Assembly (NCBI RefSeq): GCF_000152805.1 | Contig: NZ_CH902578.1 | Coordinates: 156,674 to 220,673 of the forward strand | Reading direction: 5' to 3' | DNA length: 64,000 bases | Source of the DNA: Maritimibacter alkaliphilus HTCC2654 | GTDB lineage: Bacteria; Pseudomonadota; Alphaproteobacteria; Rhodobacterales; Rhodobacteraceae | Part shown: in pieces, positions 30,068 to 35,685 of the stretch | Layout of the letters: every line of letters starts with the position of its first letter | How positions within the stretch are numbered: position 1 is the first letter of the stretch | Notes under the pieces: model-generated | Databases searched by the model: none | What the model was told of the DNA's origin: nothing | The model's input: only the letters and a program-made list of their open reading frames with translations | Made by a program: the position numbers and the translations under genes

Positions 30068-30883
30068 ATGGATATTGCGACACTGGCGTTGATGGGCGGA
30101 CTGCTTCTCGTGATCGGGGCGGTCGCGGGTATCCTTGCCGGGCTTCTGGGCGTGGGAGGCGGCATCGTTCTGGTCCCCGCCTTCTATTATGCTTTCGCCG
30201 GATTGGGATACGACGGGCCGGAACTGATGCAGGTCTGCCTTGCCACGTCGCTGTCCACGATCATCGTGACCTCGATCCGCTCGGTGTCTTCTCACAACAA
30301 GAAGGGCGCGGTGGAATGGCCGATCCTCAGGGCCTGGGCGCCGGGGATCATGATCGGGGCCGTGATCGGCGTGCTCGTCGCTTCCGGTCTGCGCACGCCG
30401 ACGCTACAGGTGATCTTCGGCACCATCGCCATCCTCGTCGCGTTCTACATGTTGTTTTTCAAGTCCGAATGGCAGATCGCGGACCGGATGCCGGGGCTGG
30501 TCGGCAGGTCGATCCTGTCGCCTCTGGTCGGCTTTCTTTCGGTCCTCATGGGGATCGGCGGCGGCAGTTTCGGGGTGCCGATCATGTCGCTGCATGGCGT
30601 GGCGATCCATCGCGCGGTGGCGACGGCGGCGGGCTTTGGCCTTATCATCGCGGTGCCGTCTGTCATCGCCTTTCTGTTCGTCGATGTGGCGGGCGCGCCG
30701 CCCTATACCATCGGCGCGGTGAACCTGCCCGCCTTCCTCGTCGTGATCGCGATGACCACGCTGACCGCACCGCTGGGCGTCAAGCTTGCACATGCGATGG
30801 ACCCGAAGCCGCTCAAGCGGGTGTTCGGCGTGTTCCTGTTGCTCGTCGCGCTCAACATGCTGCGCAAGGCGCTGATGGGCTAG
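30068..30883 (+). CDS. TauE/SafE-family sulfite or anion exporter
   Basis: A 271-residue membrane protein with about eight helices in two repeats. GLLGVGGGIVLVPAFYY and MGIGGGSFGVPIMSLHG are the paired glycine-rich TauE/SafE signatures. Members export sulfite or sulfoacetate. Its position beyond the sox and persulfide genes fits sulfite export. AAGAAGGGGACGGG precedes the start. Confidence 0.88.
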   Translation: MDIATLALMGGLLLVIGAVAGILAGLLGVGGGIVLVPAFYYAFAGLGYDGPELMQVCLATSLSTIIVTSIRSVSSHNKKGAVEWPILRAWAPGIMIGAVIGVLVASGLRTPTLQVIFGTIAILVAFYMLFFKSEWQIADRMPGLVGRSILSPLVGFLSVLMGIGGGSFGVPIMSLHGVAIHRAVATAAGFGLIIAVPSVIAFLFVDVAGAPPYTIGAVNLPAFLVVIAMTTLTAPLGVKLAHAMDPKPLKRVFGVFLLLVALNMLRKALMG

Positions 30884-30953: not shown

Positions 30954-31940
30954 ATGCAACCGCCCAATTTCGGTGTCCCGCCCAAGAAACCCGGCCTCTG
31001 GCGCCGCACGCCGCCCGCGCTTTTCCCGCCGGTCTTCGGCCTTTTCGGTCTGGCTGTCGCATGGCGTCGCGCGGCGGACGCTTTCGCGATGCCCTACTGG
31101 CCGGCCGAATTGCTGTTCGGCGCGGTGACGCTGCTCTACCTCTTCCTGCTGGTGGCATACGGCGCCAAGGTCATGCGTCGTCCCGGTGTGGTGGTCGAGG
31201 ATCTGCGGGTTCTGCCCGGACGTGCCGGACTGGCCGCGATGTCGCTGTCGGGGATGCTGATGGCGCTGGGCCTGATCGCGCTGAACGAAACGCTCGCCGC
31301 CGTCGTCCTCACCCTTGCCGTCGGCCTCCATGCCGTTCTGCTGTTGCTGGTCGTGCGCGGGCTGTTGACGGGGCCCGCCGAGGGGCGGGTGGTCACCCCC
31401 GTCTGGCACCTGACGTTCGTGGGGTTCATCATCAGCCCCATCGCGGGCGTTCCGCTGGGCTGGGATCTATGGTCGACAGTGGTGTTCTGGGTCTCGCTCG
31501 CCATCGCCGCCGCGATCTGGGGCACGTCGCTGTCGCAGTTCGCCCGCCGTGACGTGCCTGCGCCTCTGCGCCCGCTGCTTGCGATCCATCTGGCGCCTGC
31601 AAGCGTGCTCGGCTCCGTCGCGCTGCTTCTGGGCTATCACACGCTGGCGCTGGGGCTGGGCATGCTCGCGATCCCCATCCTCGTGGCCTTGCTCGCCCGT
31701 CCGCGCTGGCTTCTGGCCTCCGGGTTCTCACCGCTCTGGGGGGCCTTCACCTTTCCCATCGCGGCCTTTTCGTCGCTCATGCAGATGCTCGGCTCGGTCG
31801 GCGACGGCGAGGTATTCCGCATCCTCGGCGGCCTCGCACTGGTGGCGGCCACGCTGGGTATTCCGGTCGTGATGTGGAAGGTCGTCCAGCTTTGGGGCAA
31901 GGGCCAGCTTGCGGTCAAGACCAACGCCGCCGAGGCGTGA
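30954..31940 (+). CDS. SLAC1/TDT-family (tellurite-resistance TehA-like) membrane protein
   Basis: A 328-residue protein with about ten hydrophobic helices. FGLFGLAVAWRRAA near the start and FGAVTLLYLFLL fit the SLAC1/TehA anion-channel family. It could carry sulfite or another anion, as Ssu1-type members do, but the family also covers malate and tellurite resistance proteins. It is the last plus-strand gene of the island. Confidence 0.75.
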   Translation: MQPPNFGVPPKKPGLWRRTPPALFPPVFGLFGLAVAWRRAADAFAMPYWPAELLFGAVTLLYLFLLVAYGAKVMRRPGVVVEDLRVLPGRAGLAAMSLSGMLMALGLIALNETLAAVVLTLAVGLHAVLLLLVVRGLLTGPAEGRVVTPVWHLTFVGFIISPIAGVPLGWDLWSTVVFWVSLAIAAAIWGTSLSQFARRDVPAPLRPLLAIHLAPASVLGSVALLLGYHTLALGLGMLAIPILVALLARPRWLLASGFSPLWGAFTFPIAAFSSLMQMLGSVGDGEVFRILGGLALVAATLGIPVVMWKVVQLWGKGQLAVKTNAAEA

Positions 31941-31944
31941 GGGC

Positions 31945-32283
31945 TTACCCCAGCGCGGCCTGCACCTTTTTCGGCAGCTTCGCGCGGATCGTGTCATAGG
32001 ACACGGCAAGGCGGTGGCGAAACTCCTCCTCGCTCGTCGCCCCGAACGGGAGAAGCACCCATGATTTATGGAAATACGCGGCCTTTTGCGCGACGCCCGC
32101 ATCCTTGAGCATGTCCGCGGTTTCCACATCGGGGCATTTCACCGCGACCCCGGTGCCCATCGCGCCGATGCAGGCGAACATCTTGTCGCCCACCTTCCAT
32201 GCGTCATGTCCGCCGCCCCACGGGTCCGACAATTCGGCCCCGGCGAAGCCCTTACAGATCTCGTTGACCAGTTCACGCGACAT
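31945..32283 (-). CDS. MmcQ/YjbR family protein
   Basis: A 112-residue protein starting MSRELVNEICKGF. The DPWGGGHDAWKVGDKMFACIG and SYDTIRAKLPKK segments identify the MmcQ/YjbR (CyaY-like fold, DNA-binding) family. Longer open frames upstream are shadows of cysS. Its start is 54 bases from the cysS leader ORF on the other strand. Confidence 0.88.
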   Translation of the reverse strand: MSRELVNEICKGFAGAELSDPWGGGHDAWKVGDKMFACIGAMGTGVAVKCPDVETADMLKDAGVAQKAAYFHKSWVLLPFGATSEEEFRHRLAVSYDTIRAKLPKKVQAALG

Positions 32284-32302: not shown

Positions 32303-32330
32303 TTGGCACACCGCGCGAAGCCTGCTATCC
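32303..32330 (+). promoter_or_regulatory. Possible promoter for the cysS leader
   Basis: TTGGCA at 32303-32308 resembles a -35 element, and CTATCC at 32325-32330 with 16-base spacing is a weak -10 candidate. A start 7-8 bases later would make the leader ORF nearly leaderless, which would fit the absence of a ribosome site before it. Confidence 0.3.
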
Positions 32331-32337
32331 AGCGCGT

Positions 32338-32382
32338 ATGAACGACAACCGCAACATCATCATTTGCTGCATTACCTGCTGA
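32338..32382 (+). CDS. Cys-rich leader peptide of cysS (candidate)
   Basis: A 14-codon ORF encoding MNDNRNIIICCITC with three cysteine codons (TGC TGC at 32365-32370 and TGC at 32377-32379) just before TGA. It ends 84 bases before the cysteinyl-tRNA synthetase gene. The stop codon lies within a CTGAC-ATC-GTCAG hairpin (32379-32391), and the next base pairs (32391-32398 with 32433-32440) would form an alternative long-range stem. The layout fits ribosome-mediated attenuation by charged tRNA-Cys. There is no clear ribosome site, so leaderless translation would be required. Confidence 0.5.
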   Translation: MNDNRNIIICCITC

Positions 32383-32440
32383 CATCGTCAGGCGGGCCGT
32401 TCTTCTATTCCTCATCCAGATCGAAGCTGCTAGGTCCGCC
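32379..32440 (+). promoter_or_regulatory. Alternative hairpins between cysS leader and cysS
   Basis: Stem 1 CTGAC/GTCAG (32379-32383 with 32387-32391) with a triloop. Stem 2 GGCGGGCC (32391-32398) with GGTCCGCC (32433-32440), 8 pairs including one G-U. They share base 32391. No T-run follows stem 2, so a classical intrinsic attenuator is not evident; control of translation or Rho access is possible. Confidence 0.4.
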
Positions 32441-32466
32441 GCGGGAGAAGTGCGCGCGAGGACGCC

Positions 32467-33840
32467 ATGGTAGAGATCAAGTTTCACAACACCGCCACCC
32501 GGTCGAAAGAGGTGTTCACGCCCATCGACCCGGACAACGTGCGGATGTACGTCTGCGGGCCGACCGTCTACGACCGCGCCCATCTGGGCAACGCGCGCCC
32601 AGTCGTGGTGTTCGACGTGCTTTACCGGCTGCTGCGGGAGGTCTACGGGCCGAACCACGTGACCTACGTGCGCAACTTCACCGACGTTGACGACAAGATC
32701 ATCGAACGCGCCAACCGCGACGGCAAGGAGATCGACCAGATCACGTCGGAGACGACGCAATGGTATCTGGACGACATGGCCGCGCTGGGGGCGTTGGAGC
32801 CGACCGCGATGCCCCGCGCGACGCAGCATATCGACGACATGGTCACCATGATCGAGGGGTTGATCGACAGCGGCCACGCTTATGCCGCCGAGGGTCATGT
32901 GCTCTTCGCGGTCGACAGCTACGACGATTACGGCAAGCTTTCGGGCCGTTCGGTCGACGACATGATCGCGGGCGCCCGCGTGGAAGTGGCGCCATACAAG
33001 CGCAACCCAATGGACTTCGTGCTGTGGAAGCCCGCCCGCGACGGCGAGCCGGGGTGGGACAGCCCGTGGGGCCGGGGTCGGCCCGGCTGGCATATCGAAT
33101 GTTCGGCCATGTCCTACGGGTTGCTCGGTGAAAGCTTCGACATCCACGGCGGCGGCAACGACCTGATGTTCCCGCACCACGAGAACGAGATCGCCCAGTC
33201 GAAATGCGCTCATGCGGGGGCCGGTTTCGCGAATGTCTGGCTGCACAACGAGATGCTTCAGGTCGAGGGCAAGAAGATGTCCAAGTCGCTGGGCAACTTC
33301 TTCACCGTGCATGATCTGCTGGAACAGGGCGTGCCGGGCGAGGTGATCCGCTTCGTGTTCCTCGGCACGCATTACCGCAAGCCGATGGATTGGACCGAGA
33401 AGAAGCGGGAGGAGGCTGAGGCGACTCTCGGCAAGTGGCACCGGATGAGAGGCTCCAACAAGCCGGGAGCGGTGCCAAAGGCAATCGTCGATGCGGTCGC
33501 AAACGATCTCAATACTCCCGAGGCGATTTCTGTGCTCCATAAGTTGGCAAACATTGGAGACATTGAGGGGCTGTTGGGCGGTCTCGACTTCTTGGGGCTG
33601 AAAACTATCGACACTGAAATGCTCGATCTTATTCGAGAGGGAGAACAGGAAAGGCTTTCAGAGTTGGAGGCAAAGCTCACGCAACTGCGCATTGGGGCGA
33701 TGAATACTAAGGACTACTCGCAGGTGGACGCGATGAAGTCAGCTTTGATTGCGGCAGGTGTCGAAGTGCGCATGTCCAAGGCTGGGATAGAACTTGTGCC
33801 CGGGGCCGGGTTCGACCGAGCCAAGCTGGAAGGGCTGTGA
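32467..33840 (+). CDS. cysS: Cysteinyl-tRNA synthetase
   Basis: Charges tRNA-Cys (457 residues, normal length). Zinc and catalytic motifs in order: [19 protein letters not shown] (HIGH equivalent HLGN), [22 protein letters not shown] and [13 protein letters not shown] precedes the start. From roughly 33470 to 33790, covering the C-terminal DALR region, the base composition drops visibly: I count 90 G+C in 180 bases at 33541-33720, against 37 of 60 at 33181-33240. The gene is intact, so this may be a recombined 3' part. Confidence 0.97.
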
Positions 33841-34062: not shown

Positions 34063-35685
34063 ATGACTGAACGTCTCTACCTCTTCGACACCACGCTGCG
34101 CGACGGGCAGCAGACGCAGGGCGTGCAGTTCTCGACGCCGGAAAAAATGGCCATCGCCAAGTCTCTCGACGAATTGGGCATCGACTATATCGAGGGCGGC
34201 TGGCCCGGTGCGAACCCGACCGACAGCGAGTTCTTTCACGTCCGCCCCCAGACCCGCGCGACCTTCACTGCCTTCGGGATGACCAAGCGGGCGGGGCGGT
34301 CAGCGGAGAACGACGACGTGTTGGCGCAGGTGATGCAGGCCGAGACGCCCGCCGTCTGCCTCGTCGGCAAGACGCACGATTTCCACGTGACCACCGCGCT
34401 CGGGATCACGCTCGAGGAGAACCTCGAGAACATCTCGGCGAGCGTCGCTTATCTCAAGCGCGAGAACCGCGAGCCGCTGTTCGATGCCGAGCACTTCTTC
34501 GACGGCTACAAGGCGAACCCCGACTATGCGTTGTCCTGCGTCTTGGCAGCCTATGAGGCGGGCGCGCGTTGGGTCGTGCTGTGCGACACCAATGGCGGCA
34601 CGCTCCCCAAAGAGGTCGAAGCGATCACGCGGGCGGTGATCGACGCGGGCATCCCCGGCGATCATCTGGGCATCCACACCCACAACGACACCGGCAACGC
34701 GGTCGCCAATTCGCTCGCCGCCGTCGATGCGGGCGCGCGCCAGATTCAAGGGACGCTCAACGGGCTGGGCGAGCGATGTGGGAACGCGAACCTCATCACG
34801 ATCATTCCCACCCTGATGCTCAAAGAACCCTACAAGTCCGTCTACGAGATCGGGGTCCCGCAGGAGGCGCTGATCTCGCTCACCCGCGTGTCGCGGCAGT
34901 TGGACGACATTCTGAACCGGGTGCCGACCAAGAGCGCGCCTTACGTGGGTGGCTCGGCCTTCGTTCACAAGGCGGGGCTTCATGCCAGCGCGATCCTGAA
35001 AGACCCGACGACCTACGAACACATCGACCCGGCGCTCGTGGGCAACGAGCGCGTCGTGCCGATGTCCAATCAGGCCGGGCAATCGAACCTGAGGGCGCGG
35101 CTGCAAGCCGTTGGTATCGCGCTTGAAAAGGGCGATCCGCACCTGTCGGAAATCCTCGACGCCGTGAAGGCGCGTGAGGATCAGGGTTACGCCTATGACA
35201 GCGCGGAAGCGTCCTTCGAACTCGTGGCGCGCGGTATCCTCGGCACCTTGCCCAATTACTTCGACGTCGAACGCTACCGCGTGATTTCCGAGCGTCGGCG
35301 CAACGCGAAGGGCCGCATCGTCGTGGAATCCGAGGCGATGGTGACGGTGCGCTACCCGGACGGGGTCGAAAAGACCTCGTTCTTCAAGAACGAGCACCCG
35401 CAGGAAATGTCGGACGATGGCCCGGTCAATGCGATCTGGCTGGCGTTGCAGGCCGACCTCGGCCCATATCAGGCGTCGATCGAGCCGGTGAAGCTGACCG
35501 ACTTCAAGGTGCGCATCACCCAAGGCGGGATCGAGGCGGTCACGCGCGTCATCATCGACTTCACCGATGGCGAGAAGCGGTGGTCCACGGTGGGCGTGTC
35601 GTCGAACATCGTCGATGCGAGCTTCGCCGCGCTCCTCGATGCGCTGGTCTGGAAACTGCTGGATGACGGCGTGCGTCCGGCGTGA
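34063..35685 (+). CDS. cimA: (R)-citramalate synthase
   Basis: Condenses acetyl-CoA and pyruvate to citramalate, giving a threonine-independent route to isoleucine. 540 residues: HMGL-like TIM barrel opening with LFDTTLRDGQQTQGVQFS, metal segment GIHTHNDTGNAVANS, then a C-terminal LeuA-type allosteric domain (about residues 400-530). CimA rather than isopropylmalate synthase is indicated by the IEGGWPGANPTDSEFF segment. GAGG precedes the start. Confidence 0.93.
   Translation: MTERLYLFDTTLRDGQQTQGVQFSTPEKMAIAKSLDELGIDYIEGGWPGANPTDSEFFHVRPQTRATFTAFGMTKRAGRSAENDDVLAQVMQAETPAVCLVGKTHDFHVTTALGITLEENLENISASVAYLKRENREPLFDAEHFFDGYKANPDYALSCVLAAYEAGARWVVLCDTNGGTLPKEVEAITRAVIDAGIPGDHLGIHTHNDTGNAVANSLAAVDAGARQIQGTLNGLGERCGNANLITIIPTLMLKEPYKSVYEIGVPQEALISLTRVSRQLDDILNRVPTKSAPYVGGSAFVHKAGLHASAILKDPTTYEHIDPALVGNERVVPMSNQAGQSNLRARLQAVGIALEKGDPHLSEILDAVKAREDQGYAYDSAEASFELVARGILGTLPNYFDVERYRVISERRRNAKGRIVVESEAMVTVRYPDGVEKTSFFKNEHPQEMSDDGPVNAIWLALQADLGPYQASIEPVKLTDFKVRITQGGIEAVTRVIIDFTDGEKRWSTVGVSSNIVDASFAALLDALVWKLLDDGVRPA

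Follow-up and report, generated by a model that had tools for sequence, protein, structure and literature searches.

Does the short cysteine-containing ORF in front of cysS, the gene for cysteinyl-tRNA synthetase, tie the expression of this gene to the supply of cysteine in Maritimibacter alkaliphilus HTCC2654, and through which RNA structures? In the window, the whole 64,000-nucleotide stretch of DNA that was analysed, cysS lies at 32467-33840 of the + strand, encodes a protein of 457 aa (Pfam tRNA-synt_1e, E 6.8e-120) and is preceded by the Shine-Dalgarno (SD) sequence GAGGA at 32458-32462 (+). A preliminary description, made from the sequence alone, had placed a 14-codon ORF directly before cysS, with its stop codon in the hairpin CTGAC (32379-32383)/GTCAG (32387-32391), and an alternative stem, GGCGGGCC (32391-32398)/GGTCCGCC (32433-32440), that has G32391 in common with this hairpin. 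All of these elements are present. The ORF, MNDNRNIIICCITC (32338-32382, +), begins at ATG 32338, ends at TGA 32380-32382 and is separated from the cysS start by 84 nt. Its tandem Cys residues (CC) are codons 10 and 11, so that the first Cys codon is the 10th.

The leader is divergent from, and back to back with, a YjbR family gene (31948-32283, -; Pfam E 3.7e-14), with ~55 nt between the start of that gene and the leader ATG. Further upstream are two sulfur-related neighbours of cysS, a TauE/SafE-type sulfite exporter (30068-30883, +) and a SLAC1-type channel (30954-31940, +), and 3' of cysS is a homocitrate/citramalate-synthase-like gene (34063-35685, +; HMGL-like with a LeuA dimer domain).

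The Cys leader ORF is conserved before cysS in Rhodobacterales

Upstream regions of Rhodobacterales cysS genes were gathered by protein search, which gave 161 distinct regions, about one per genus. A short ORF with at least two Cys codons was found in 140 of the 161 regions compared to 4-11 in shuffled sequences. This is the unbiased comparison, and it confirms that the leader ORF is more than chance. When an ORF was counted only if it had at least one Cys codon, 150 of the 161 regions contained one. Among the 150 leaders selected in this way, 130 were 13 or 14 codons long and 139 used TGA as the stop codon, and their Cys codons were TGC 383 times and TGT 38 times. Cys at codons -4 and -5 is conserved through both TGC and TGT, and the N-terminal half of the peptide has no conservation over the 150 leaders. 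Some leaders, such as L083, keep only one Cys; within the genus of the window, the ORF occurs in all eight genomes with one to four Cys each. The last codon is NGC in 119/143 leaders, which fits pairing with the GCGGG stretch described below and would not reflect a requirement for Cys at this position. The Ile codon beside the conserved Cys is ATT in 132/143 leaders, and the cysS gene of the window favours ATC (16 ATC, 6 ATT).

Covariance-model searches matched 105 of 121 Rhodobacterales genomes. In the window's own genome there was one strong match, located before cysS. A single leader was found per genome, adjoining cysS in more than 100 genera. An Rfam search of the region and of its relatives matched no family, and the T-box riboswitch model likewise gave no match there. 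The comparison across Rhodobacterales proposed in the preliminary description thus revealed a conserved Cys ORF, together with stems that carry compensatory changes.

Promoter geometry supports a leaderless start

A predicted leader promoter occupies 32303-32331 (+), with the -35 element TTGGCA at 32303-32308, a 17-nt spacer and the -10 element TATCCA at 32326-32331. Its predicted +1 is A32338, with which the leader ATG begins, and the leader RNA is therefore read as leaderless. Over the 150 leaders, the TTG of the -35 and the TA of the -10 lie at a constant distance before the ATG. This fixed spacing across the family supports a leaderless start, which had been only implied at the outset.

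Three stems covary and define competing folds

RNAalifold on a 134-sequence alignment reported no structure, and pair counts in fixed columns were weak, both because the register shifts between lineages. We therefore used two register-tolerant tests without fixed columns: one measured the real arms against permutations of the arms among genomes, and the other, the sister-swap test, exchanged arms between genomes of highest similarity and so took kinship into account. Three stems stood out in Rhodobacterales. The strongest, P0, pairs GAACG (32340-32344, +), which overlaps the start codon, with CGTTC (32398-32402, +). It gave a permutation z of 12.3 with 56 swaps better and 6 worse, is recovered in the folds, and is represented by more than 60 different complementary pairs, including GAACGG/CCGTTC, GAACCG/CGGTTC, GAAGAGC/GCTCTTT and ATGAACAC/GTGTTCAT. 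P1 is the stop-codon hairpin (z 10.2, swaps 38:6 for the core pairs), with the extended 5' arm CCTGCTGAC at 32375-32383 (+) and a 3' arm at 32387-32396 (+) made up of GTCA (32387-32390), G32391 and GCGGG (32392-32396). P2 joins GGCGGGCC (32391-32398, +) to GGTCCGCC (32433-32440, +); its GCGGGC/GCCCGC pairing gave a z of 8.9 and swaps of 40:8, and L083 carries the compensatory pair GGCGGACC/GGTCCGCC. Both hairpins of the preliminary description are hence real, and the pairing that covaries most strongly, between the start-codon region and the stretch after GCGGGC, had been overlooked.

Six other pairings tested in Rhodobacterales showed no excess. A control pairing of the sequence 5' of the start with the P0 3' arm reached 41:21 in sister swaps, so small excesses in this test are not trustworthy; P0, P1 and P2 are well above it. 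An inner extension of P2, CTTC/GAAG, did not covary (23:24), and neither the Cys codons nor the start region showed an excess of pairing with the 3' side of P2.

The stems compete with each other. In the nascent RNA fold of the window, the stop hairpin is extended to CCTGCTGAC/GTCA-GCGGG, and it thereby shares five further bases (32392-32396) with P2. Since extended P1 and P2 both use GCGGG, they are mutually exclusive. The Cys leader ORF thus sits within mutually exclusive RNA structures, of which P1 and P2 both covary, as is expected of an attenuator. P0 and P2 cross, and would be either alternatives or parts of a pseudoknot. Among 131 leaders folded from the start to just past P0, the lowest-energy structure contained P0 in 124, P1 in 115 and extended P1 in 102. 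Once the folded RNA was lengthened to include the P2 3' arm, P2 formed in 94 of the 131 and P0 was left in 28. For the window, the predicted energies are -18.5 kcal/mol for the 5'-closed form and -17.4 kcal/mol for P2 together with the P1 core. The comparative evidence fixes the parts and the two competing conformations, but not the output step, which we infer.

A U/C-rich tract overlaps a second promoter-like site

Directly after P0 is a U/C-rich tract (32403-32413, +; 51% T and 8% G over the family), a candidate termination tract. It overlaps the -35 of a second promoter-like site (32408-32436, +), which the preliminary description had also overlooked and which consists of TTCCTC (32408-32413), a 17-nt spacer and TAGGTC (32431-32436), with TG before the -10 and a predicted start near 32443. 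Over Rhodobacterales the element takes the form TTTYCA-N17-TAAGCC, with TG just before TA, at constant spacing between leader and cysS. Its matrix scores exceed all shuffled controls in 144 of the 161 regions, and the site is kept in 7 of the 11 regions without a leader ORF (L012, L023, L142, L152, L161, L189 and L198). We read it as a predicted core promoter of cysS itself. Alphaproteobacterial promoters usually lack T at the last -10 position (PMC8407463). The -35 of this second site lacks the G of TTG, which is unusual for promoters of this class. A transcription start downstream of 32340, which the preliminary description had regarded as evidence against its reading, is partly in play, as the conserved site predicts one near 32443 for part of the cysS transcripts.

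Because the tract coincides with the -35 of the second promoter, its conservation has two possible causes. The P2 arms flank the second promoter and can meet only in RNA begun at the leader promoter. In the window, P2 ends 17 nt before the cysS SD. No downstream terminator or SD-blocking hairpin was supported by covariation in Rhodobacterales.

A related leader precedes cysS in Hyphomicrobiales

A leaderless leader before cysS is also found in Rhizobium, Ensifer, Mesorhizobium, Bradyrhizobium, Devosia and others. One example is MKTVICIICRKIIR, with the stop codon TAG within GCTAGC/GCTGGC and a P0 such as AACGGCC/GGCCGTT. In one order, taken as Hyphomicrobiales from the sequences, a model built from these leaders matched 71 of 199 genomes, each of them once, representing 41 of 99 genera; it also matched 4/4 genomes of a small separate order. 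In most other families sampled in the class the leader was absent. Cys is present in 72 of 73 Hyphomicrobiales leaders. In sister swaps P0 (18:6) and P1 (23:4) covary in this order, and P2 is not significant (10:13). On geometric grounds, P1 and P2 would exclude each other here through the shared GCTGGC. Literature searches found no cysS leader described for Hyphomicrobiales.

Individual Hyphomicrobiales leaders carry additional features. In L301, L300 and L338, the cysS Shine-Dalgarno, GGGG, can pair with a CCCC stretch that follows P2, hinting at translational control in these three; such SD pairing occurs in single genomes and is unsupported over the whole set (5:11). In the Rhizobium-type leaders L040, L052 and L291, the P2 3' arm is followed by a CCGG..CCGG hairpin and then a U run (AUAUUUUU or similar), plausibly an intrinsic terminator. 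A terminator of this type was not seen in Rhodobacterales.

A model for the control of cysS and its alternatives

Comparison across genomes supports the ORF, its Cys codons, the leaderless geometry, the three stems P0, P1 and P2, the incompatibility of P2 with extended P1, and the second promoter-like site. We consider it very likely that the leader senses Cys, and a low level of charged Cys-tRNA very probably raises cysteinyl-tRNA synthetase production. We give about an even chance to the leader being a ribosome-mediated, Cys-tRNA-sensing attenuator of cysS. Transcription would begin with the first base of the leader's ATG, and translation of the 14-codon ORF would be leaderless. The emerging RNA would first adopt the 5'-closed form, in which extended P1 is enclosed by P0, the pairing of the start-codon region with the bases just ahead of the tract. 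With ample Cys-tRNA, the ribosome would finish and depart, the 5'-closed form would persist and much of the transcription from the leader promoter would end at the tract. With scarce Cys-tRNA, a ribosome stalled at the Cys codons would cover or crowd the 5' arms of P0 and P1, RNA polymerase would continue into cysS and P2 would form instead. The second promoter would supply basal cysS mRNA independent of the leader. In this scheme, we infer that ribosomes stall, which sign the control has, that transcription terminates at the tract and that the second promoter is active. More tentatively, P0 may be the decision element: by linking the leaderless start codon with the RNA just ahead of the tract, it would let the attenuator read ribosome cover of the first codons. 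This layout, unlike the trp-type scheme, would be common to Rhodobacterales and Hyphomicrobiales and, in Rhodobacterales, overlaid on a separate basal cysS promoter.

Several observations argue for attenuation: a conserved Cys leader before cysS only, the leaderless promoter geometry, covariation of P0, P1 and P2 in Rhodobacterales and of P0 and P1 in Hyphomicrobiales, a predicted nascent fold that holds P0 and P1 with a predicted full-length fold that switches to P2, the U/C-rich tract right after P0, retention of the second promoter-like site without the leader, and an independent published prediction (PMC8632094). Cys-dependent control through ribosome position and alternative folding, as initially proposed, is well supported by the comparative evidence, and the overall reading is supported in part. 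Against attenuation, the run of U is weak and falls on the second promoter's -35, so that conservation of the tract need not mean termination; leaders with a single Cys (L083) count against it; a ribosome stalled on the leader of the window, whose first Cys codon is number 10, may do no more than crowd the P0 5' arm, without covering it; and a second promoter would make control of total cysS mRNA less tight. Furthermore, the tract precedes the 3' arm of P2, which excludes P2 from any decision on termination at that point, even though P2 is under selection.

This last point bears on a reading that we consider possible though rather unlikely, in which Cys sensing is kept and the choice between P0/P1 and P2 takes effect in the full-length RNA, by way of Rho or of the translation or stability of the cysS mRNA. 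Such an output can be entertained since no downstream terminator or SD-blocking hairpin is supported and P2, which forms only in RNA past the tract, covaries. In its favour, a terminator hairpin with a clear U run lacks support in Rhodobacterales; against it, no covarying pairing was found to hide the cysS SD there or, overall, in Hyphomicrobiales, and 17 nt lie between P2 and the SD in the window. The second promoter-like site between leader and cysS would also suit a leader that makes a separate small RNA and/or peptide acting in trans, with cysS driven mainly by its own promoter, for which rnTrpL is a precedent in an alphaproteobacterium (PMC10117765). We regard this as improbable, given that a single leader per genome has remained beside cysS across more than 100 genera, that P2 depends on RNA extending beyond the second promoter and that the peptide lacks conservation in its N-terminal half. 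It is more improbable still that the Cys content is incidental, the ORF being a by-product of conserved RNA structure and promoter. The NGC last codon, which fits GCGGG pairing and indicates some RNA-level constraint, and the leaders with only one Cys are consistent with this, but TGC and TGT both serve to maintain Cys at codons -4 and -5, the ORF is conserved in its start, frame and length, the Hyphomicrobiales leaders carry Cys in 72/73 cases despite a different sequence and stop codon, and the downstream gene is always cysS. A chance ORF with chance inverted repeats, for which only the shortness of the ORF speaks, has a negligible probability: it is already refuted by conservation that spans ~150 genera, extends to a second order and includes compensatory changes.

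Comparison with known systems

A Cys leader ORF controlling a tRNA synthetase gene has rarely been described, and the published motif is a prediction. The anatomy added here makes the mechanism testable in workable laboratory species, with the base pairs to break and restore named; the Hyphomicrobiales carriers include Rhizobium, Ensifer and Bradyrhizobium. T-box riboswitches likewise control synthetase genes according to tRNA charging, but they bind tRNA directly and have no leader ORF. The trpL leader of Sinorhizobium meliloti has a classical intrinsic terminator, and we know of no start-codon stem in trpL/rnTrpL. Like the cysS leader, trpL/rnTrpL is a leaderless 14-codon ORF that starts at the AUG and precedes a gene for the same amino acid (PMC10117765), with Trp and trpE in place of Cys and cysS. 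Mycobacterial Cys-rich uORFs, found before cysA2 and others, also present a Cys cluster in a small, conserved, ribosome-occupied uORF (PMC4633059), and candidate cys leader peptides are listed in PMC1262725; these belong to another phylum, precede cys metabolism genes and have no conserved terminator hairpins reported (PMC1262725).

The closest known system is the motif uORFC-8-2 (Brewer et al. 2021, RNA Biol, PMC8632094), for which the published text gives 145 examples, all of them before cysS and exclusively in Rhodobacterales, and proposes ribosome-mediated attenuation as a prediction, with no experiment. The preliminary description, which knew of no established cysS attenuator of this kind in Rhodobacterales, was therefore out of date. 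By location and ORF, the feature in the window is a member of uORFC-8-2 as described in that text: it lies before cysS in Rhodobacterales and has an AUG uORF with tandem Cys codons, UGC dominant. In a comparison by text only, P0 and P1 followed by the U/C tract fit the published wording of two stems, the first with the Cys codons, and a 3' U run, and the tract is probably this U run. The text places the tandem Cys at positions 14-15, compared to codons 9-11 of 13-14 here, and calls the motif exclusive to Rhodobacterales (PMC8632094), whereas we also find the leader in Hyphomicrobiales. A leaderless start, a start-codon stem or a second promoter is not named in the text compared (PMC8632094). 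To that text, the present analysis adds the leaderless start, the start-codon stem P0, the second promoter and the wider distribution.
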